Source of the DNA: a virus
Reading direction: 5' to 3' (one strand)
Virus record (IMG/VR): IMGVR_UViG_3300017719_000240
Span: 1-22,359 of that record
Length of the DNA stretch: 22,359 bases
Below, in pieces: positions 6,822-22,359 of this stretch (the first letter of the stretch is position 1; each line of letters starts with the position of its first letter). Position numbers and translations under genes: made by a program. The notes under the pieces were generated by a model that was not told where the DNA came from, searched no databases, and saw nothing but the letters and a program-made list of their open reading frames with translations.

Positions 6822-7292
6822 TTAAAACTCCTTCATGTACTGGGTTTCAGCTTTAGTGTAACCCTTTTTTTCGTATATCTCTGATAAGTCTGTTATATTC
6901 TCAAGGTAGGTCATACCAACGTACTTCACACCCTTCGACAAAGCCCACTCTTCGTATGCTTTCATAAGCCTGAAACCTGCCGTGCTGTTCCTGTACTCTT
7001 TACTGACGAACCAAGCTACCTCTGTTGAAATCTTTTCTGAAGAGAAAAAAGGTTCTGCGTACATTCCACATATGAAACCAACTACCTCATCTTCTCGTTC
7101 AGCAACAAGAGTAACAAAGTTCTCTAAAGGTATTGTTTGTACAAAGACTTGTTGTGTTTTCTTTGCGTCCCAAGAGTAAGGTACTTTAGACTCTTTGTGA
7201 AATTGTTTGAAGAGGATTAAGCAGTCCAGTGCATCTTCTTCTGTAGCTTCTCTAATGTTAATAGGTGTTGTTTTTACCACCAAGTACCTCAT
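6822..7292 (-). CDS. GNAT-fold acetyltransferase-like protein in the T7 gene 13 position, 156 aa
   Basis: The fold is clear from order and motifs: the opening strand INIREATEEDALDCLILF, then FVTLVAEREDEVVGFICGMY (beta strands 2-4), EVAWFVSKEYRNSTAGFRLM (motif A region, residues 91-110), and LSEIYEKKGYTKAETQYMKE (motif B). The cofactor loop normally reads R/Q-x-x-G-x-G/A. Here it is RNSTAG (101-106), with Thr at the first glycine, so acetyl-CoA binding may be weakened. The gene lies between gp12-like and gp14-like genes, where T7 has gene 13, whose family belongs to the same fold clan to my recollection. It may be structural rather than catalytic. Start: ATG 7292 overlaps the preceding gene by 35 bases and has only a close AGGA. 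GTG 7280 with GAGGT five bases upstream is a good alternative (152 aa). Confidence 0.82.
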   Translation of the reverse strand: MRYLVVKTTPINIREATEEDALDCLILFKQFHKESKVPYSWDAKKTQQVFVQTIPLENFVTLVAEREDEVVGFICGMYAEPFFSSEKISTEVAWFVSKEYRNSTAGFRLMKAYEEWALSKGVKYVGMTYLENITDLSEIYEKKGYTKAETQYMKEF

Positions 7293-14908: not shown

Positions 14909-16453
14909 TTAAAATGCTACTCCACCAAACTTAGGGTGAAATACTACATTGCTGTCTTGAGTTCTAACTCTTTTGACTGAACTACTAGGCTTGACAGCTA
15001 CCTCAACGGCAGCAGCTAAACAGTCCTTGCAGTCATCGTGGGCAGGGTTGTGGGATACCAACTCTTCTTCTAGTACCTGACAGTTGCCACCACGATAGTG
15101 ATACATCTGTAGGTTGTCGTACCTTGGTTCTAGTGCAGCAGCAATACGTTCTTCTTTGGAACCTTGGTGCCTGTTTGGTCTATGCTCGTCAATCTTTAAA
15201 GCTAGGCCGTTAGGTTTAATGTAGTTATCTTTTAGTTCAGATACGATAGCTGACTGAGCAGCAGTACATTCAGCCCGTAGTTTCCTGAAGTCCCAGCGGT
15301 TAAGGAGGTCAAGGATGTGTCGGAAGTACTCAGAAATCTTGTCTGTTTTAAAACGGTCGATGTCTAAAACATATACGTTATTTTCATAGTCAACTCCGAT
15401 AACGACAATGGCTGTGTAATCCGAACGCTTGCTGACACTGTAAGCAAAGTCCACAGCTGCACTAACATTTAGTTTACGTCCTTGATAGTGCCACTGTCCA
15501 TTGTCACGACTAAGATGTTTACGATCATAATACTGAAACTTCTCGTAGGCTATAGGTTGTGTGTCTGGATCAGTAGGGTCATTGTAGTACTGAGCACGAA
15601 ACTGTACACGGTCTAGGTATTGCCCACGTTTCTTAGCTAAAATCTTAATATCGAATCCAAAAAACTTACCATCTTTACGAAGTTGACGAGGCCACAAGAA
15701 GTCGCCAGTACCGTCACCGTTATCTTCTACTCCTCGTTCCATTACTTCGTAAATAGATTCTTTACCTAGTATCTCGTTGTCATCAGAGTAGACATCTTCT
15801 TCCATACCCATCAGATCAGAGTACAAGTCCTTAGGATGATACCGAGTACCTACTACCCACTCTTTAGCTTCACTGCCCTCAATAGATGAAAGCAAAGAGT
15901 ACTGGGATTTAACTTTGTTACGACCTTCCCCAGTGTACGCATTTTCAAATACCACAACATCATCAAGAACTGCAATGTCACAGTGCATCCCAGTAAGGGA
16001 AGTAGTGAGACCGCCAGTAAATATAGAAGGGTCACGGATAGCTTCTTTCTTACGATCAGGGTGGTCTAAAGCAATCTCAGAGGTAGTCCACTTTTCTCGT
16101 TTACTCTCATCTTTGTTTAGATGTTCAGGCCAGTACTTCTGGTGGATGTCTGACTCAAAGATGTTCTTGATAAACGATAGCTGTTTCTGAGCTAAGTTAG
16201 ATGTAGCTGAGATATAAAGAATACGTAGTGTAGGGTTCTTAGTCAGTTCCCAAGCAACACGGTAGGCAACCATAGCTGACTTACCGTGGTCACGAGGAAA
16301 TAAAAGTAACTGGTGTGTTTTAGCTTCTTGCCTTGTCCACCACTTACAAACATCCTCGTGACAGTTGCCTAGTACACGTTGAGGGGCAACCAGTTTTATA
16401 AACGTAATTAAGCTACGTTCAGCTGCCTCTTTAATTTCATCTATGGTAGCCAT
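14909..16453 (-). CDS. terL: Terminase large subunit (TerL), 514 aa
   Basis: This is the ATP-driven motor that loads DNA into the procapsid through the portal and cuts the concatemer. The N-terminal ATPase domain shows a Walker A-like loop PRDHGKSA at residues 53-60, the strand LRILYISATSNLAQKQ at 76-91, and a Walker B IAVLDD at 160-165 ending in two acidic residues. The motif VGTRYHPKDL at 201-210 fits the coupling motif. The C-terminal RNase H-like nuclease domain shows the first acidic residue in AAVDFAYSVSKRSDYTAIVV (Asp335, Asp345), an acidic candidate at LRAECTAAQ (Glu395), and a final acidic cluster HDDCKDCLAAAVEVAV near 485-500. Length is normal for the family. The start overlaps the chaperone-like stop. 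A 60-base gap with a promoter separates it from portal. I see no small terminase nearby. Confidence 0.95.
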   Translation of the reverse strand: MATIDEIKEAAERSLITFIKLVAPQRVLGNCHEDVCKWWTRQEAKTHQLLLFPRDHGKSAMVAYRVAWELTKNPTLRILYISATSNLAQKQLSFIKNIFESDIHQKYWPEHLNKDESKREKWTTSEIALDHPDRKKEAIRDPSIFTGGLTTSLTGMHCDIAVLDDVVVFENAYTGEGRNKVKSQYSLLSSIEGSEAKEWVVGTRYHPKDLYSDLMGMEEDVYSDDNEILGKESIYEVMERGVEDNGDGTGDFLWPRQLRKDGKFFGFDIKILAKKRGQYLDRVQFRAQYYNDPTDPDTQPIAYEKFQYYDRKHLSRDNGQWHYQGRKLNVSAAVDFAYSVSKRSDYTAIVVIGVDYENNVYVLDIDRFKTDKISEYFRHILDLLNRWDFRKLRAECTAAQSAIVSELKDNYIKPNGLALKIDEHRPNRHQGSKEERIAAALEPRYDNLQMYHYRGGNCQVLEEELVSHNPAHDDCKDCLAAAVEVAVKPSSSVKRVRTQDSNVVFHPKFGGVAF

Positions 16454-16914
16454 TAGGGTTTAGTAGGCCAATCACCACCAGCACCATCCATGTCAGGGTA
16501 TGCTAGGTTAGGCCAGTTGGCGTGAGTTGTGATGTCTCGCAGAGCCTGACGATAGGCTGTCATGGAGTCTGACATAGTTAGGTCGGACAGAGCCAAGTAA
16601 TCTGTCTCGGCTAAAAGACGGTCACGATGTTTACGGTTACTTGCTTCCAGAGCTGCTGTGCGTGAGGCAACGTCAGCATCCGATAGGTCAACCACCCGGC
16701 GAGTGTAAACCTTGCCATCGTTTAAGTAGGGATCGACACCCTCACTCTTTTGCGTTCCACTATCGAAAGCCAGAAACTTCACGACCTCTGCGCAGGAATT
16801 AGCTGCCAGCCATGTAGCATCTGGGCCACTGGCGGGGAACGACACGTTTGGAAAGAGTGTCTTGTGGTCAGCTATCTCACCAACCGTTGATCCATCTAGT
16901 CTTGCGATCTTCAT
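16453..16914 (-). CDS. Tail assembly chaperone-like protein (Phage_tail_APC type), 153 aa
   Basis: The C-terminal half contains RKHRDRLLAETDYLALSD, then MSDSMTAYRQALRDI and a final GDWPTKP. This is the signature of a small family annotated as phage tail assembly chaperones, often linked to fibre genes. The N-terminal half (residues 1-75) is an acidic, less familiar stretch with the beta-like start MKIARLDGSTVGEI. ATG 16914 has AAGGA nine bases upstream, lying over the end of the LamG gene. The stop overlaps the TerL start (TAATG). Next to fibres in a short-tailed phage, the likely job is folding or assembly of fibre proteins rather than tape-measure assembly. The family assignment rests on the C-terminal motif only. 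Confidence 0.75.
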   Translation of the reverse strand: MKIARLDGSTVGEIADHKTLFPNVSFPASGPDATWLAANSCAEVVKFLAFDSGTQKSEGVDPYLNDGKVYTRRVVDLSDADVASRTAALEASNRKHRDRLLAETDYLALSDLTMSDSMTAYRQALRDITTHANWPNLAYPDMDGAGGDWPTKP

Positions 16915-16916
16915 AA

Positions 16917-18959
16917 TTACTGTCCTTTATCTGCGAATGGTTCGGTTGGAGCGTCAAAGTCAGCGGTGTAACGGACTTTGTGAGATATTCTAAAATCGTC
17001 AATGTAGCCGCCAAAGTGATGGTAGCTTGGGCTATAACCCCTTCCAATAAAGTGATTGCCTGTGCTTAGGAATGTATTTGACAACCCCGTATTGACCCCA
17101 GTCACCGCAGTCCCATCAATATAACAAGCGTGAGGGTTCGAACCATCCTTGGTAATTGCAACGTGGTGCCAAGCCCCAGAGTTCATTGACGCATTTACGT
17201 TAAACTGAACAATGTCGGAATATCCTCCAGTACCATAAGCAAGCTGGATACAACGGTCACTACCACTACCATTAATGCCGCTGGTGAAAGCCATATATCG
17301 AGCAGACGGTTCCCCGTAAAACATATCCCATGACCCAGAAGCTGGCCACGCATTTAGATACGCAAAGAACTCCATAGTAAATGCGCCTGATAAATCGACT
17401 GCGGGCATGGAGGCATAATCGCCGTTGTCATCTAGGGCCAGAGAAGTATCTCCGAACTTAGCCTGTACGTTGCTAAGTTTAGCGTTGCCGAAAAGATTAA
17501 GATTGCGCTGCGCTGCGCTGTCAATCGCCTGACCGTCTGCCATGTTTAGCAGGAGCTTGGTGTTGGTGACTGCTGTGAGTGGGGCTGTTGGGACACCAGA
17601 AGGTTCGACTGCCGTTCCTTTTATAACCCTAACATCTGTTAGATACCCATCTAAGGTAAAGTCGTTATCACTGCCGCCATCATTAAAAGACCCAATATAA
17701 ACAGGAGTTGGGGCATTAAAGGTTGCACCATCCAAATCCCCAGAGTCCACTGCACGGCTACTCACCTCAGTACCATTAAAGAAGAACTTAATTACACCAC
17801 TGGCACGGGTGACAACAACATTATTCCAACTGTTTAAGTTTAATGTAGCAGACCAACCCACCATGTTATTAAGGTTATTAGTGCCTAACCTAATTTGGTC
17901 TGCGGCGTTATTCCACCACAGTTGATAGCTATCCGTGTTTCCATTACCGTCCATGTCTCCCAAGATAGCAATGCCTTTATCGGTTTCTGAGTAAATCCAT
18001 GCTGAAATAGTAAAGTCGCCAGTTCCAAAATTAAAATCTGAAGATGTTGGAACAGTCAACCAATCCCCAGTCCCATCAAAGTATCCACTCGCACCATTCA
18101 CCCCTGCGGAATAAACAGAAGAGGTCAGGAAGGGGCCGAAGGCTGTGACTGCTGCTGAACCTGCTGGTGTAATTGTGTGACCGTTTGACGAATTATCAAC
18201 AAACCTGTTGCTTTGGCATGTTAGCAAATTTGTATTTGAATCTGAAACAAACGGTGCAGTGCTTGGAGTAAAATTAGAGGTGTATCTAGCAATATTAGAG
18301 AAACGAACATTAGACATAAACCCGTCAAAAAGCCTAAAGCCACTGGTAAAGCCCCTTGCAGTTCCTATGTACTCCATAGCACCCGTAGCAGATGAATTAG
18401 ATAATGTAACAGAACTGGCTGTTCCATCCAAGTAGCACTTTACTGTGCTGCCGCTACGAACCAGTGCAACGTGGTGCCAAGTATTCGGAGAAAACTCTAA
18501 GTCAGAAAAATGAGTTGTTGTTTGACCAGCAGTGGAGCTAGTACCAAACACAAAGTTATTTGTGCCAGATACTCCATCTTCCTCTATATTTAGAGCATTA
18601 AGATTTCCGTTTGCATTTGTTGTGACCCTTATTGTATGATCGTCAAAAGGAACATTTACAAACACCTCATAGGTATAGTCACCTGAGAAACTACCAGCTC
18701 CAGTTGCCCGTGCATAAGCCGTGCTGTTATCAAAGCTCACAGCCCACTCACCATCAGGCCGAGCAAACGGGCCGAAGCTACCTTGGGTCACATTGCCGTT
18801 AGCTGTGATGGTGTGGTTGCTGGACGAGCTATCATCGAACACGTTGTTAACGCCGTTGTTAGTGCCATCGAAGTGAGACAAAAACGAGACACGGTTAAAC
18901 TCATCGTCAACAGGTATGTCCTTTTTACCCGCAGCACCTAGACTTCTTTGACTGAGCAT
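16917..18959 (-). CDS. Tail fibre / adhesin with three LamG-like (concanavalin-like) repeats, 680 aa
   Basis: The start is ATG 18959 (MLSQRSLGAAGKK), overlapping the preceding TAA as TAATG, with AGGAGA nine bases upstream. The longer in-frame start at 19088 adds 43 residues rich in Cys, His and Arg that overlap the preceding gene and look non-coding. Three repeats follow at about residues 24-244, 245-476 and 477-680. Each has the jelly-roll landmarks of LamG/pentraxin-like domains: a DSS/N-H-T-I opening, an F-G/TGDYT-EVF or DFTISAW strand, the WHHVAL, WNNVVV or WHHVAI strand followed by a short FxDG or YIDG turn, and a closing G(Y/F)-DDFRIS or SNVRFS strand with RYT. LamG domains bind carbohydrates, so this is probably a receptor-binding protein recognising surface glycans. 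It has no catalytic residues that I can recognise. The stop codon is followed after two bases by the start of the chaperone-like gene. Confidence 0.88.
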   Translation of the reverse strand: MLSQRSLGAAGKKDIPVDDEFNRVSFLSHFDGTNNGVNNVFDDSSSSNHTITANGNVTQGSFGPFARPDGEWAVSFDNSTAYARATGAGSFSGDYTYEVFVNVPFDDHTIRVTTNANGNLNALNIEEDGVSGTNNFVFGTSSTAGQTTTHFSDLEFSPNTWHHVALVRSGSTVKCYLDGTASSVTLSNSSATGAMEYIGTARGFTSGFRLFDGFMSNVRFSNIARYTSNFTPSTAPFVSDSNTNLLTCQSNRFVDNSSNGHTITPAGSAAVTAFGPFLTSSVYSAGVNGASGYFDGTGDWLTVPTSSDFNFGTGDFTISAWIYSETDKGIAILGDMDGNGNTDSYQLWWNNAADQIRLGTNNLNNMVGWSATLNLNSWNNVVVTRASGVIKFFFNGTEVSSRAVDSGDLDGATFNAPTPVYIGSFNDGGSDNDFTLDGYLTDVRVIKGTAVEPSGVPTAPLTAVTNTKLLLNMADGQAIDSAAQRNLNLFGNAKLSNVQAKFGDTSLALDDNGDYASMPAVDLSGAFTMEFFAYLNAWPASGSWDMFYGEPSARYMAFTSGINGSGSDRCIQLAYGTGGYSDIVQFNVNASMNSGAWHHVAITKDGSNPHACYIDGTAVTGVNTGLSNTFLSTGNHFIGRGYSPSYHHFGGYIDDFRISHKVRYTADFDAPTEPFADKGQ

Positions 18960-19447
18960 TAGGTTCCATCTCCTACCAATGCACCGTAAAGTGTGCTTCC
19001 GACTTTCCAGACTGTGATGACTGTGTAGCCTGACGTAGCCAACGTAGGTGCAACACCAGCATTGTTTACCCATGTCATCGTGGGCCATGTGATCGTTGCG
19101 GCAGAGCCATCGTCAATCATCAGGGTCATAGCCTGACCAGCGGAGAAGGCGTCAGTGTACGTTGTAGCACCCGTCAGAGTATGCGTCTGTATGGAGCCGT
19201 TGCTTGGCTCTAAAGCATAAGATGTGCCAGAGATTGCATAGATGTCTTCAATCGGCGTACCAGTATAAGCTGGGTCAGTCAGCCCACCAAGGTCGTAGTA
19301 ACCCAAGCTCGACCATGCGGTTGACCCATCGCCAGCTTTGAGTTGGCTGGTGTCTGTCTCCAAACCTAACTCACCTTGGGCAAGCGTAGGGTTACTGGAT
19401 GTCCAGTTAGCTGCCGTGTCACGGCGGATTTGAATTAGATCAGCCAC
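18959..19447 (-). CDS. Tail fibre / tropism-determinant N-terminal-like protein (Mtd_N-like), 162 aa, GTG start
   Basis: From GTG 19447 the product begins (M)ADLIQIRRDTAANWTSS, then NPTLAQGELGLETDTSQLKAGDGSTAWSSL. The pattern of IQ-RRDTAANW, LA-GELG-ETDT and KAGDG-TAWS-L is the signature of the N-terminal trimerisation/attachment domain of phage major tropism determinants and many other tail fibres (Mtd_N family). Residues 60-162 are beta-rich, with conserved-looking stretches such as TLMIDDGSAATITWPTMTWV and VITVWKVGSTLYGALVGD, typical of phage fibre ends. The lectin-like variable domain of the Bordetella phage Mtd protein is absent. The gene overlaps both neighbours: 8 bases with the 112-aa module and 1 base (TAATG) with the LamG gene. 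Role: fibre component between the baseplate and the LamG adhesin, inferred. Confidence 0.82.
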   Translation of the reverse strand: MADLIQIRRDTAANWTSSNPTLAQGELGLETDTSQLKAGDGSTAWSSLGYYDLGGLTDPAYTGTPIEDIYAISGTSYALEPSNGSIQTHTLTGATTYTDAFSAGQAMTLMIDDGSAATITWPTMTWVNNAGVAPTLATSGYTVITVWKVGSTLYGALVGDGT

Positions 19448-19778
19448 TAGCTGTACCTCCATTAATAGATTGTGCTGCTGTGTAAACGGATGCAGCGGAG
19501 CCACCATCGGCTGAATTGATTGCTTGTGCTACTTCAAACGTGGTGTATGCCACGACCTCAAGGATGTCGTTTAGTGCAGCCCCTACAGTAAGCACTACAT
19601 CTACTGAGTTAGATGCTGTGTAGTCTGCTGCCGCCAGCTTCACGCCATTCAAGTAGACATCAAGGAAATTGGGCGTGTACCCTGACGTAGTGAAAGAAGT
19701 CTGACCTGCTGTTGCTGTGAAAGCATCACGGGTCTGTGTAGCCTGTGGTACTGGCTGTGTGCCTATGTAACCTGACAT
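19440..19778 (-). CDS. Tail fibre N-terminal module, 112 aa
   Basis: The protein begins MSGYIGTQPVPQATQTRDAF, followed by TATAGQTSFTTSGYTPNFLDVYLNGVKL and a short beta-rich core (DVVLTVGAALNDILEVVAY), then an Ala/Ser/Gly-rich tail. I recognise this as the module that starts many phage fibre proteins, where it usually leads a much longer chain. Here it stands alone. The start is fixed by AGGAGG five bases upstream. It ends in TGA at 19442-19440, sharing 8 bases with the GTG start of the next gene. Likely role: fibre attachment or a fibre shaft segment, with the 162-aa and 680-aa proteins downstream supplying distal parts. The short length is supported by in-frame reading and a well-formed downstream ribosome binding site, so I do not regard it as a frameshift artefact, though a frameshift at the junction cannot be excluded by eye. 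Confidence 0.8.
   Translation of the reverse strand: MSGYIGTQPVPQATQTRDAFTATAGQTSFTTSGYTPNFLDVYLNGVKLAAADYTASNSVDVVLTVGAALNDILEVVAYTTFEVAQAINSADGGSAASVYTAAQSINGGTASG
19455..19460 (-). promoter_or_regulatory. Ribosome binding site GGAGGT that decides the GTG start of the Mtd_N-like gene
   Basis: A perfect GGAGGT lies seven bases before GTG 19447, inside the end of the preceding gene. The upstream ATG at 19507 in the same frame has no comparable site and would add 20 residues without family character (MVAPLHPFTQQ). Confidence 0.75.
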
Positions 19779-19783
19779 GATGT

Positions 19784-19789
19784 CCTCCT
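19784..19789 (-). promoter_or_regulatory. Strong ribosome binding site AGGAGG for the 112-aa fibre module
   Basis: The minus strand reads AGGAGG five bases before ATG 19778. It overlaps the TAG stop of the preceding gene, which fixes the start and suggests coupled re-initiation. Confidence 0.75.
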
Positions 19790-20813
19790 ATGCTGCTTGA
19801 AACTGATATCGGACAATAACTACACCGGAGCCGCCGGGTTTGGTTGCGTTATCTTGCCCAGAGGGGTTAGAGGCTTGACCCGCAGAGGCACCTCCGCCAC
19901 CGCCTGTGTTAGTTGCACCTGCTGCTGAGGCTGCAATAGAGGAATTTCCACCGCCGCCTTTACCGCCACCATGACTTGCAGATCCACCATCGTTGCGGTC
20001 TCCTCCACCCCCACCGCCAGCACGGCCTACACTTGATCCCGTTATGCTGCTAGTCAGACCAGCGCCACCAGTGCTGCCGTTATCAGTACCCTGACCCCCA
20101 GCGCCACCGCCACCTGATCCTTGGTTATATAGGTTGGAGTCATTGCCGCCCCGGTTTCCTTGACCAGAGGTTGCGGCGCCACCGCTTCCGTTTTCAGCGC
20201 CCCCTCCTGATCCGCCACTTTGCCCATTTGTGCCGCCGCCATAGCCGCCGCCGCCTCCGCCACCAACGGCTGTTGCAAGCGATCCAAACAGTGAATTAGT
20301 CCCGCTGCCGGATGCCGTGCCAACATCGCCACGAGCACCCCCGGCCCCTACAGTAATTGCGTAGGCTTGTTCAGTGAGAGTAACGGAGGAAGCTGTTAAA
20401 TAACCCCCTGCTCCGCCGCCGCCGCCATCGTTATAGCCGCCACCCCCACCGCCAGCAATGACAAGGTAAGAAACATCATTTTGAACGCCAAGATTTGTTA
20501 CGGTGAAAGTCCCAGAACTGTTAAAGGTGTGTACTTTAAAATTACCATCCGTAGTAATTGTGCCTCCAGTAGCCTCCATGTACGGAGGGCCGCCAATCGT
20601 GCCGCTTCCATCACCTACGTTTGTCCACTCATTAACTCCAGCAGTCGCATCCGTTAGAACATACATCTCACCGGAAGTCTTATTCTCCCAGATGTGGCCT
20701 AAGCCAGAAGCAGGGTTGCTATCAGCAGCAGGATCAGAAGTTGACACAGTTGTGTCTGTCAGTTCTGCAAACTCACTTGCGCCTCCATCGGCGTTGTCTC
20801 TCGCCTTAGTCAT
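19788..20813 (-). CDS. Second glycine-rich tail fibre / adhesin protein (paralogue)
   Basis: I place the start at ATG 20813 (341 aa, beginning MTKARDNADGG). The frame stays open to 20963, but that extension overlaps the preceding gene by over 150 bases, reads as low-quality sequence (MPHGMRSTHHNH) and lacks the character of the family. An ATG at 20822 is a close alternative. Residues 1-100 carry the same module as the upstream paralogue (NPASGLGHIWENKTSGEMYV, then EWTNVG), followed by a strand-rich linker and about 220 residues of glycine blocks (IAGGGGGGYNDGGGGGAGG and more), ending GSGVVIVRYQFQAA. The shared order and closing strand show duplication followed by divergence of the loops between glycine runs. 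Probable role: receptor-binding tip of the tail fibre. TAG at 19790-19788 overlaps the ribosome binding site of the next gene. Confidence 0.85.
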   Translation of the reverse strand: MTKARDNADGGASEFAELTDTTVSTSDPAADSNPASGLGHIWENKTSGEMYVLTDATAGVNEWTNVGDGSGTIGGPPYMEATGGTITTDGNFKVHTFNSSGTFTVTNLGVQNDVSYLVIAGGGGGGYNDGGGGGAGGYLTASSVTLTEQAYAITVGAGGARGDVGTASGSGTNSLFGSLATAVGGGGGGGYGGGTNGQSGGSGGGAENGSGGAATSGQGNRGGNDSNLYNQGSGGGGAGGQGTDNGSTGGAGLTSSITGSSVGRAGGGGGGDRNDGGSASHGGGKGGGGNSSIAASAAGATNTGGGGGASAGQASNPSGQDNATKPGGSGVVIVRYQFQAA

Positions 20814-21156
20814 CCACTGCATCCCACGATGTAGTTTCTTCGTTCCAAGTGTAACGAGAGCCATCATCAGGCATTGCCGTTGGAGCTTCCCAAAGACAGC
20901 TATCGTCATCCAAAGTCCAACTTGGGTATGGTTGTGGTGCGTAGAACGCATCCCGTGCGGCATCGTATGTCATGCCAATGCCAGCGTAGTTCTTACGAAG
21001 TGGAGTACCACCGTTTGTATGTACGCCGCCGTGGGTGTTGTAGGATGTTTGTATCCATTGACCGGGGCTACTGTCTACGAATGTGTCGAAGAACTCAGCT
21101 TCAGCTACGATGACTTGCTCTACCAAGCCGTTGTTTACTTTTGCATAATGTGCCAT
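20806..21156 (-). CDS. Conserved phage protein of unknown function, 116 aa, in the fibre cassette
   Basis: The protein begins MAHYAKVNNGLVEQVIVAEA and is acidic and rich in aromatic residues, with repeated Trp-containing stretches (GQWIQTSYNTHGG, PSWTLDDDSCLWEAP, TWNEETTSWDAVDD). I recognise the N-terminal pattern as one seen in many marine phage structural clusters, but no function is known to me. It lacks membrane segments and a signal peptide. ATG at 21156 has an AAGGGG-type ribosome binding site about 10 bases upstream, just after the stop of the preceding glycine-rich gene. Its end overlaps the likely start of the next gene by 8 bases (ATGACTAA), which suggests translational coupling. 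Its position between two paralogous adhesins suggests a fibre-associated or fibre-assembly role. That is inferred from context only. Confidence 0.85.
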   Translation of the reverse strand: MAHYAKVNNGLVEQVIVAEAEFFDTFVDSSPGQWIQTSYNTHGGVHTNGGTPLRKNYAGIGMTYDAARDAFYAPQPYPSWTLDDDSCLWEAPTAMPDDGSRYTWNEETTSWDAVDD

Positions 21157-21169
21157 GTTTTAATTCCCC

Positions 21170-22359
21170 TTAAACTGCATAACGGATGATAACGATGCCG
21201 GAACCACCGTTTGATCCCGCATAGGACCCGCCGTTGTTACCAGCACCTCCGCCGCCAGTATTTGTTTGACCCGCTGAAGGAGTGCCGTGAGATAGTGCAT
21301 CCGCACCTCCCCCATCTCCTCCGGGTGATGCACCGGGGCCACCTGCGCCTCCACCAGCATAGAACCCTGAGTCTCCTGTTGAGGTTGCTGTTGCCCATGT
21401 AGAGTAGTCCAAACCATTACCAGCCTCACCACCAAAACTGCCACCGTTTGAGCCTTGTGCGCCAGCACCTCCGCCGCCACCGCCTCCGACTACTCCACCC
21501 GGATTTCTGCCGCCATCGTTTCCTTGGCCCAAGGTACCCGCTCCGCCTTGTCCACCAGCGCCGCCTCCGCCACCTGAGCCACCAGCCCGACCATTAGAAG
21601 GGTAGTCTTGACTGTTATAAGAGTAGCCGCCACCTCCGCCACCTACAGCAGCTGTAAGGGTTGAGAATGAGGAGTTTCCACCGTCACTTCCTGAACCACC
21701 AGACACAGCACCTTGGACACCCCCTGCCCCAATAGTTACAGTAAGGTTGCCTGTGTTAAGCGTTGTAGAAGATTGGATAAGCCCCCCAGCCCCACCTCCG
21801 GCAGAATAGAAACCTAAAGCACCACCAGTACCACCTCCTCCTCCGCCTCCAGCGACAATGAGATAATCCGCTGATTTAGCTCCAGTAACTACAAGTGTAC
21901 CAGACGAAGTAAACGTGTGGTATGTGTATCCACCCGAAGTAACTACTGTTCCGCCTGTAGCGGAAAAAGAGGTAATACTATACTCACCCAGACCCGTGTT
22001 AGTCCATACGTTGTCGTTAGTTGTAGCACCTGTGCAGACATACTGTTCACCAGATGTAGAGTTGATCCACAAGTGACCTACGCCAGAAGCAGGGTTAGTG
22101 GTGGGTGTAGGGTCCGTAGCAGATACTGTAGCATCCGTAAGTGTAGCTACACTACTAGAAACACCTGTAAGCTGTGAGCCATCACCTGTAGGCTGCAACG
22201 CACTAGCTGCTAGTGTACCCTGCCCTGCAGTGGCATAAGCTGTAGCGTCTGTAGTGGCTGCAGTACCAAGTCCTACAACCTCAGATGCTGAGATTACACC
22301 GTCCTCTAAAGCAGTACCGCCAGAGAGGATGTCTGCTAATTTACGTGCCTTTGATCGTG
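21170..22359 (-). CDS. Glycine-rich tail fibre / adhesin protein (5' end outside window)
   Basis: The reading frame has no stop from the right edge of the window down to TAA at 21172-21170, so the start lies outside and about 395 codons are visible. The nearest in-frame start-like codon, TTG at 22198, is not convincing because coding continues upstream of it with a typical phage fibre sequence (RKLADILSGG, then ISASEVVGLGTAA). Then come a short beta-rich module (NPASGVGHLWINSTSGEQYV), a strand-rich linker, and a C-terminal domain of about 260 residues full of GGGGGG, GGAGG and GGSG blocks, ending in the beta strand GIVIIRYAV. This looks like the glycine-rich fibre-tip domains of phages, in which polyglycine-II helices present variable receptor-binding loops. 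That structural reading is inference. It is a clear paralogue of the gene at 19788-20813. Its role in host recognition is likely, but the receptor is unknown. Confidence 0.85.
   Translation of the reverse strand, partial: RSKARKLADILSGGTALEDGVISASEVVGLGTAATTDATAYATAGQGTLAASALQPTGDGSQLTGVSSSVATLTDATVSATDPTPTTNPASGVGHLWINSTSGEQYVCTGATTNDNVWTNTGLGEYSITSFSATGGTVVTSGGYTYHTFTSSGTLVVTGAKSADYLIVAGGGGGGGTGGALGFYSAGGGAGGLIQSSTTLNTGNLTVTIGAGGVQGAVSGGSGSDGGNSSFSTLTAAVGGGGGGYSYNSQDYPSNGRAGGSGGGGGAGGQGGAGTLGQGNDGGRNPGGVVGGGGGGGAGAQGSNGGSFGGEAGNGLDYSTWATATSTGDSGFYAGGGAGGPGASPGGDGGGADALSHGTPSAGQTNTGGGGAGNNGGSYAGSNGGSGIVIIRYAV

Follow-up and report, generated by a model that had tools for sequence, protein, structure and literature searches.

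The closest described counterpart of the locus considered here is the tail fibre gp24 of phage Pam3 and its chaperone gp25, which were solved together in one 3:3 cryo-EM complex, with residues 31-280 of gp24 and 1-162 of gp25 modelled (PMC9608196). In TFP_Y, a gp24-like fibre of a Klebsiella phage, changes in the glycine-rich domain accompany LPS-dependent host adaptation (PMC12671077). This type of fibre tip is already known. Genes of the kind described below, which encode glycine-rich proteins (GLY) and a small partner of 116 amino acids (SM116), are mostly annotated as 'hypothetical', and our search of the open-access literature turned up no account of SM116 proteins as chaperones, nor any of permutation of the tip.

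We analysed a stretch of 22,359 bases (the window) that constitutes a whole IMG/VR record, so the edge that cuts GLY2 is also the end of the record. It derives from a marine virus of bacteria and, judged by its proteins, is a fragment of siovirus-like (Cobavirinae) type: its terminase, portal and tail proteins match those of Siovirus/Cobavirinae (Roseobacter SIO1, Lentibacter ICBM1, Celeribacter P12053L). All likely genes of the window lie on the minus strand, and the fibre region reads, in transcription order, GLY2, SM116, GLY1, a 112-amino-acid module, an Mtd_N protein, a three-fold laminin-G protein, a tail-assembly-chaperone-like protein and the terminase. The glycine-rich part comprises the following features.

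21170..22357, minus strand: GLY2, glycine-rich tail-fibre protein of the upstream slot, truncated at its 5' end by the window edge (PF21722 Gly_rich_2, E 1.3e-16; phrog_2295; translation)
about 21965-22357, minus strand: GLY2 stalk (module boundary from sequence comparison)
about 21170-21964, minus strand: GLY2 tip, TNF-like/glycine-rich (module boundary from sequence comparison)
20806..21156, minus strand: SM116, small partner protein of 116 amino acids (phrog_7759, unknown function)
19788..20813, minus strand: GLY1, glycine-rich tail-fibre protein in the downstream slot, 341 amino acids, conserved start MTKARDN (PF21722, E 1.3e-20; start from relatives)
20580..20813, minus strand: stalk of GLY1 (residues 1-78), a module that remains with its slot (75% identity to the L088_dn and L005_dn stalks despite differing tips)
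19791..20579, minus strand: GLY1 tip, with a TNF-like hairpin (residues about 80-107), a glycine-rich core and the closing strand GGSGVVIVRY (AlphaFold2 strands; Pfam span; unpermuted 'N' type)

The 112-amino-acid protein (start MSGYIG; 19440-19778, minus strand) resembles a stand-alone N-terminal module of larger fibres, such as those of L086 (817 amino acids) and CRP-207 (gp54, 1003 amino acids). The preliminary description had assigned positions 19440-22359 to the glycine-rich pair and the gene between them; that span does hold GLY-SM116-GLY, and it also takes in this different module. A protein of 182 amino acids (18959-19507, minus strand) carries the Major tropism determinant N-terminal domain (PF18454) with no recognisable variable domain, and no reverse transcriptase was found among the window proteins scanned against Pfam. 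At 16453-19088 (minus strand), a three-fold laminin-G-like fibre protein (723 amino acids) is followed by a Phage_tail_APC protein, which makes a second fibre/chaperone-like pair at the same locus. A GNAT acetyltransferase gene (6822-7292, minus strand) sits amid the tail structural genes, as in other sioviruses.

Both glycine-rich reading frames are real, and the common order of modules that had been read in them was confirmed: a KAR..AD start, a stalk with NPASG.GH.W.N.TSGE.YV, a hairpin with ATGGT.....HTF.SSGT, glycine blocks and a closing strand GGSG[VI]VI[VI]RY. We rejected the start of the longest GLY1 reading frame (20963), because four relatives (L003, L005, L087 and L088) all start GLY with the same 8-nucleotide overlap of SM116, which places the GLY1 start at 20813. 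Compared with shuffled sequences, the stalk modules of GLY1 and GLY2 match with z = 25, and the tips still reach z = 12 against shuffles that leave every glycine in place, so the likeness goes beyond chance. The inserts between glycine runs, thought at first to differ completely, are 35% identical at the columns of the tips that are not Gly-Gly. The word 'duplicated' misleads: the pair is not a recent tandem duplication, since each tip is closer to the tip of another phage (GLY1 to L086, 76%; GLY2 to L088, 73%) than the two are to each other. Neither the tip identities nor a tree of the glycine cores supported recent duplication of one from the other.

PF21722 is the sole Pfam match of both proteins (GLY1, 74.9 bits; GLY2, 61.8 bits). 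We built AlphaFold2 models of single chains with locus alignments. The GLY1 model (pLDDT 88.7) had as its best PDB match by Foldseek the Pam3 tail fibre gp24 (7ypx_A; E 3.4e-6, prob 1.0), followed by 7yfw, the Bxb1 tail tip and then, weakly, ALK/LTK glycine-rich domains (E 0.03 and above). Chains A (250 residues) and a (162 residues) of 7ypx fit Pam3 gp24 and gp25. These results agree, at the level of a predicted fold, with the earlier proposal of a glycine-rich sandwich whose variable loops form a fibre tip. Pam3 gp24 itself scores 23.8 bits against PF21722, just below the cut-off of 24.3. Direct sequence comparison of GLY with gp24 gave a weak match, and sequence searches of GLY and SM116 against solved structures, as single sequences or as profiles, returned nothing meaningful. 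The GLY1 N terminus is mostly beta in the model, with one short helix and no N-terminal helical docking/trimerisation shaft as in gp24; because a difference in the N-terminal part has likewise been reported for TFP_Y (PMC12671077), we treat the shaft as a variable and not a defining feature of gp24-type fibres.

The proteins had previously been likened to the gp38 adhesins of Salmonella phages, a comparison that is wrong in family and close in principle. If GLY1 and GLY2 were adhesins of the S16 gp38 type, they would be monomers at the end of a separate gp37-like fibre, and hypervariable segments do separate their glycine-rich motifs, as they do in gp38 (PMC6851490). However, neither protein matches PF05268 (GP38) or PF21721 (Gp38_N), both of which S16 gp38 itself matches, and the gp38 structure (6F45) is not among the 50 PDB matches listed. 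Moreover, the middle domain is predicted to be TNF-like and not a beta-helix, and GLY has its own stalk, while a gp37-like partner was not seen in the window. These data largely refute a gp38-type adhesin, which we find hardly credible, and favour candidate tips of the Pam3 gp24 kind.

The gene between the two fibre genes is more than a spacer. A scan for its family, made without regard to glycine content, showed the family to be large, with relatives in at least 600 viral stretches, and SM116 to be a regular downstream partner of polyglycine genes; as set out below, it also resembles a fibre chaperone. A polyglycine gene lies immediately upstream in 67 of the 70 relatives with a readable upstream gene, versus 48 of 795 background genes (6%), and one further relative has a glycine-rich end, cut by the contig, in that position. 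A second set, of bacterial and metagenome-assembled contigs, gave 19 of 27 versus 14 of 279. The converse is looser: in loci selected for glycine, SM116 comes next after 42 of 80 polyglycine proteins. Since GLY1 itself, like about half of those proteins, has no SM116 directly downstream, dependence on SM116 is not universal. Isolated phages that infect Roseobacter, Pelagibacter and Methylophilales carry glycine-rich fibres with an SM116 partner, and cyanophages, too, have SM116 relatives. In some loci (L113, L115, L124 and L204), at least two glycine-rich fibre genes stand in a row, and each such array holds either one SM116 gene or two.

SM116 has no Pfam match and matches only PHROGs of unknown function, phrog_7759 being the best. 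Its AlphaFold2 model (pLDDT 95.6) has a beta-rich C-terminal half without helix, and its best PDB match by Foldseek was the Pam3 fibre chaperone gp25 (7ypx_a), with prob 0.87 and, taken alone, weak values of E 0.19 and a TM-score of about 0.36. An hhalign comparison with the gp25 beta-sandwich covered gp25 residues 4-48 at 30% identity (P 0.0016). When the SM116 profile was compared with 24 Pam3 proteins, gp25 came first, and among 2001 sequences ranked together with its own shuffles it came 4th (p about 0.002). These sequence comparisons lend the match modest support. We find the likeness persuasive because separate fold searches led from GLY1 and SM116 to the two halves of a single solved complex, whose genes also stand in the same order. 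A helical C-terminal (Phage_tail_APC-like) domain is fused to SM116 in none of the relatives. As SM116 is without the C-terminal helical trimerisation domain of gp25, we do not file it as a member of the gp25/Tfa family, and propose instead that it would work like one. Two other assignments were rejected. A split chaperone would consist of SM116 and a separate helical trimerisation protein, but just 9 of 178 cases had a helical-domain gene no further than three genes downstream. As to kinship with V22 gp27 (DUF4376), 97 aligned SM116 relatives gave no Pfam match above chance.

The same features could be taken to mean that SM116 remains in the fibre as a lasting part, capping the tip or acting as an accessory adhesin on it, instead of being released as a chaperone; Mu Tfa and S16 gp38 stay on their fibres in this way. 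Some phage fibre partners do remain in the virion (PMC7289586, PMC9608196), and both the missing helical trimerisation domain and the strong conservation of SM116 (mean 63% identity) would suit such a role. However, gp25, the best structural match, was not detected in virions of Pam3 and lies over the loops that face the receptor (PMC9608196), and the receptor site would be hidden if an invariant cap sat on a variable tip. We therefore consider a lasting part unlikely; most likely, SM116 chaperones the conserved part of interchangeable tips.

Whether tips are interchangeable can be read from the pairs themselves. Across 71 SM116-tip pairs, mean identity was 63% for SM116 and 31.6% for tips outside Gly-Gly columns, with a Spearman correlation of 0.15; in the 24 pairs with SM116 at least 90% identical, median tip identity was 33%, mostly as different as any others. 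Because SM116 identity hardly predicts tip identity, we infer that, like gp25, SM116 recognises what stays constant in the tip. A direct case of exchange is L088, a fragment without terminase whose kinship to the window phage rests on its flanking genes: its SM116, 112-amino-acid and Mtd_N genes are 89-92% identical to those of the window. Residues 1-75 of its downstream GLY protein (L088_dn) match the downstream slot of the window (70-83%), and from about residue 76 the protein matches the upstream tip of the window (56-96%). The breakpoint is the stalk/tip domain boundary, and the transferred tip includes the loop GLDYSTWATATSTGDSGFY. The window's upstream tip is also found in L005, there in the upstream slot. 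The preliminary description had anticipated that glycine domains would be exchanged while flanking modules stay constant, and the comparison of related loci bears this out, through both the L088 slot swap and the SM116-tip pairs; as to its suggestion of a dual-receptor tip or a reservoir for recombination, swapping between the two slots was seen.

Upstream of the terminase, 34 relatives (L219-L286) with terminases about 90-98% identical have an almost wholly different fibre locus, in which SM116 or GLY was recognised in few (L227, L254, L255 and partly L264). This high variability of the fibre locus among terminase-matched sioviruses, together with the fact that neither slot's tip is the nearest relative of the other, could mean that the two genes were acquired separately, that one tip is functional at a time and that SM116 was linked and carried along. 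Against such a history, GLY-SM116-GLY recurs in L003, L005, L087, L088 and the isolate CRP-143 (Autographiviridae), and SM116 adjoins GLY in very different phages, which makes it an improbable account. In roseophage CRP-143 (L288), an isolate of another family, the three genes are gp39-gp41, all annotated as hypothetical. We thus prefer to see the two copies as two tip sites that would also serve as a store for recombination, since tips can move between slots.

The relatives also differ in where the hairpin stands. The motif TGGT.T..G.Y..HTFTSSGTF has one of two places: ahead of the glycine core, in which case 1-6 amino acids follow the closing strand, or after the core, where in 89 of 90 cases it forms a C-terminal tail of 30-35 amino acids beyond the closing strand. 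Scoring with a hairpin profile gave 84 proteins with the N-terminal hairpin only, 90 with the C-terminal one only, 1 with both and 14 with neither (Fisher p 2e-37, relatedness ignored). These counts concern relatives, GLY1 and GLY2 both being of the N type (hairpin before core); 78 proteins without a recognisable closing strand were left out, and 15 multi-domain cases were set apart. As the hairpin is before or after the core and almost never both, the sequences look like circular permutation of the Gly_rich_2 tip. In several two-domain proteins, two neighbouring hairpins lie mid-protein, the pattern that a permuted domain ahead of a normal one would give. SM116 is 98% identical behind both hairpin types (L007 and L171), and gp43 of the pelagiphage isolate HTVC025P appears permuted, as does a 336-amino-acid protein of L030. 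Relatives named for the two tip forms are L030, L007, L202 and L290 (HTVC025P gp43). On the tree of glycine cores, normal and permuted types change at least 3 times on starred branches and 30 times by parsimony; because this tree is poorly resolved (16 of 162 inner branches starred), it is compatible with one origin of the permutation, with several, or with exchange of cores between frames.

Together, these data make it likely that GLY1 and GLY2, like gp24 of Pam3, serve as receptor-binding fibre tips and that SM116 is their dedicated folding chaperone. In this model, the stalk module would anchor the GLY protein, and the TNF-like beta-sandwich would carry a lattice of glycine strands whose distal turns may form the variable receptor-binding surface, by analogy with TFP_Y (PMC12671077). 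By analogy with Pam3, the tip would be a trimer, and SM116, like gp25, would bind the tip while it forms, with its putative beta-sandwich at the conserved junction between the TNF-like and glycine-rich parts, and then probably be released. One conserved SM116 could serve whatever tip recombines in beside it, and possibly both tips of the window, because it would not depend on the variable loops. Exchange takes place at the stalk/tip boundary and can carry a tip into the other slot. For the phrog_7759 family as a whole, we lean slightly towards a minimal fibre chaperone that has no trimerisation domain and works with exchangeable glycine-rich tips, among them tips with a circularly permuted TNF-like module. 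If true, an abundant family of so far unassigned proteins would gain a function, a simple gene-pair rule would mark receptor-binding tips, and the free exchange of tips would be explained by a chaperone that sees their constant part. A hairpin placed at the N- or the C-terminal side, but not at both, would represent a natural case of circular permutation affecting the receptor-binding domain of a virus.

Among known systems, Pam3 gp24 (PDB 7ypx chain A, 7yfw; PMC9608196) shares with GLY1 and GLY2 a TNF-like beta-sandwich with glycine-rich loops and a small chaperone gene after the fibre gene, but it has an N-terminal helical shaft and is present in one copy, whereas the GLY proteins have a beta-rich stalk and a longer glycine core and occur as two copies. 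S16 gp38 (PDB 6F45) likewise has hypervariable loops between glycine-rich motifs, proposed to bind receptors, but it belongs to other Pfam families, has a beta-helix core and sits as a monomer on gp37. The ALK/LTK glycine-rich domain (PDB 7nx1, 7lir) has a TNF-like plus polyglycine architecture like that of GLY1, but it comes from an animal receptor, and its weak Foldseek matches may reflect architecture only. For SM116, the small gene gp27 of Alteromonas phage V22 (PMC7289586) is also downstream of a fibre gene and is needed for an active fibre, but its product is a 21.8 kDa protein with DUF4376, whereas SM116 has 116 amino acids and no DUF4376. Pam3 gp25 and the Mu Tfa family share with SM116 the start '.HYA.V..GLV', a gene directly downstream of a glycine-rich fibre and, possibly, an N-terminal beta-sandwich, and differ in their conserved C-terminal helical trimerisation domain, in place of which SM116 has a beta-rich half with no Pfam match.
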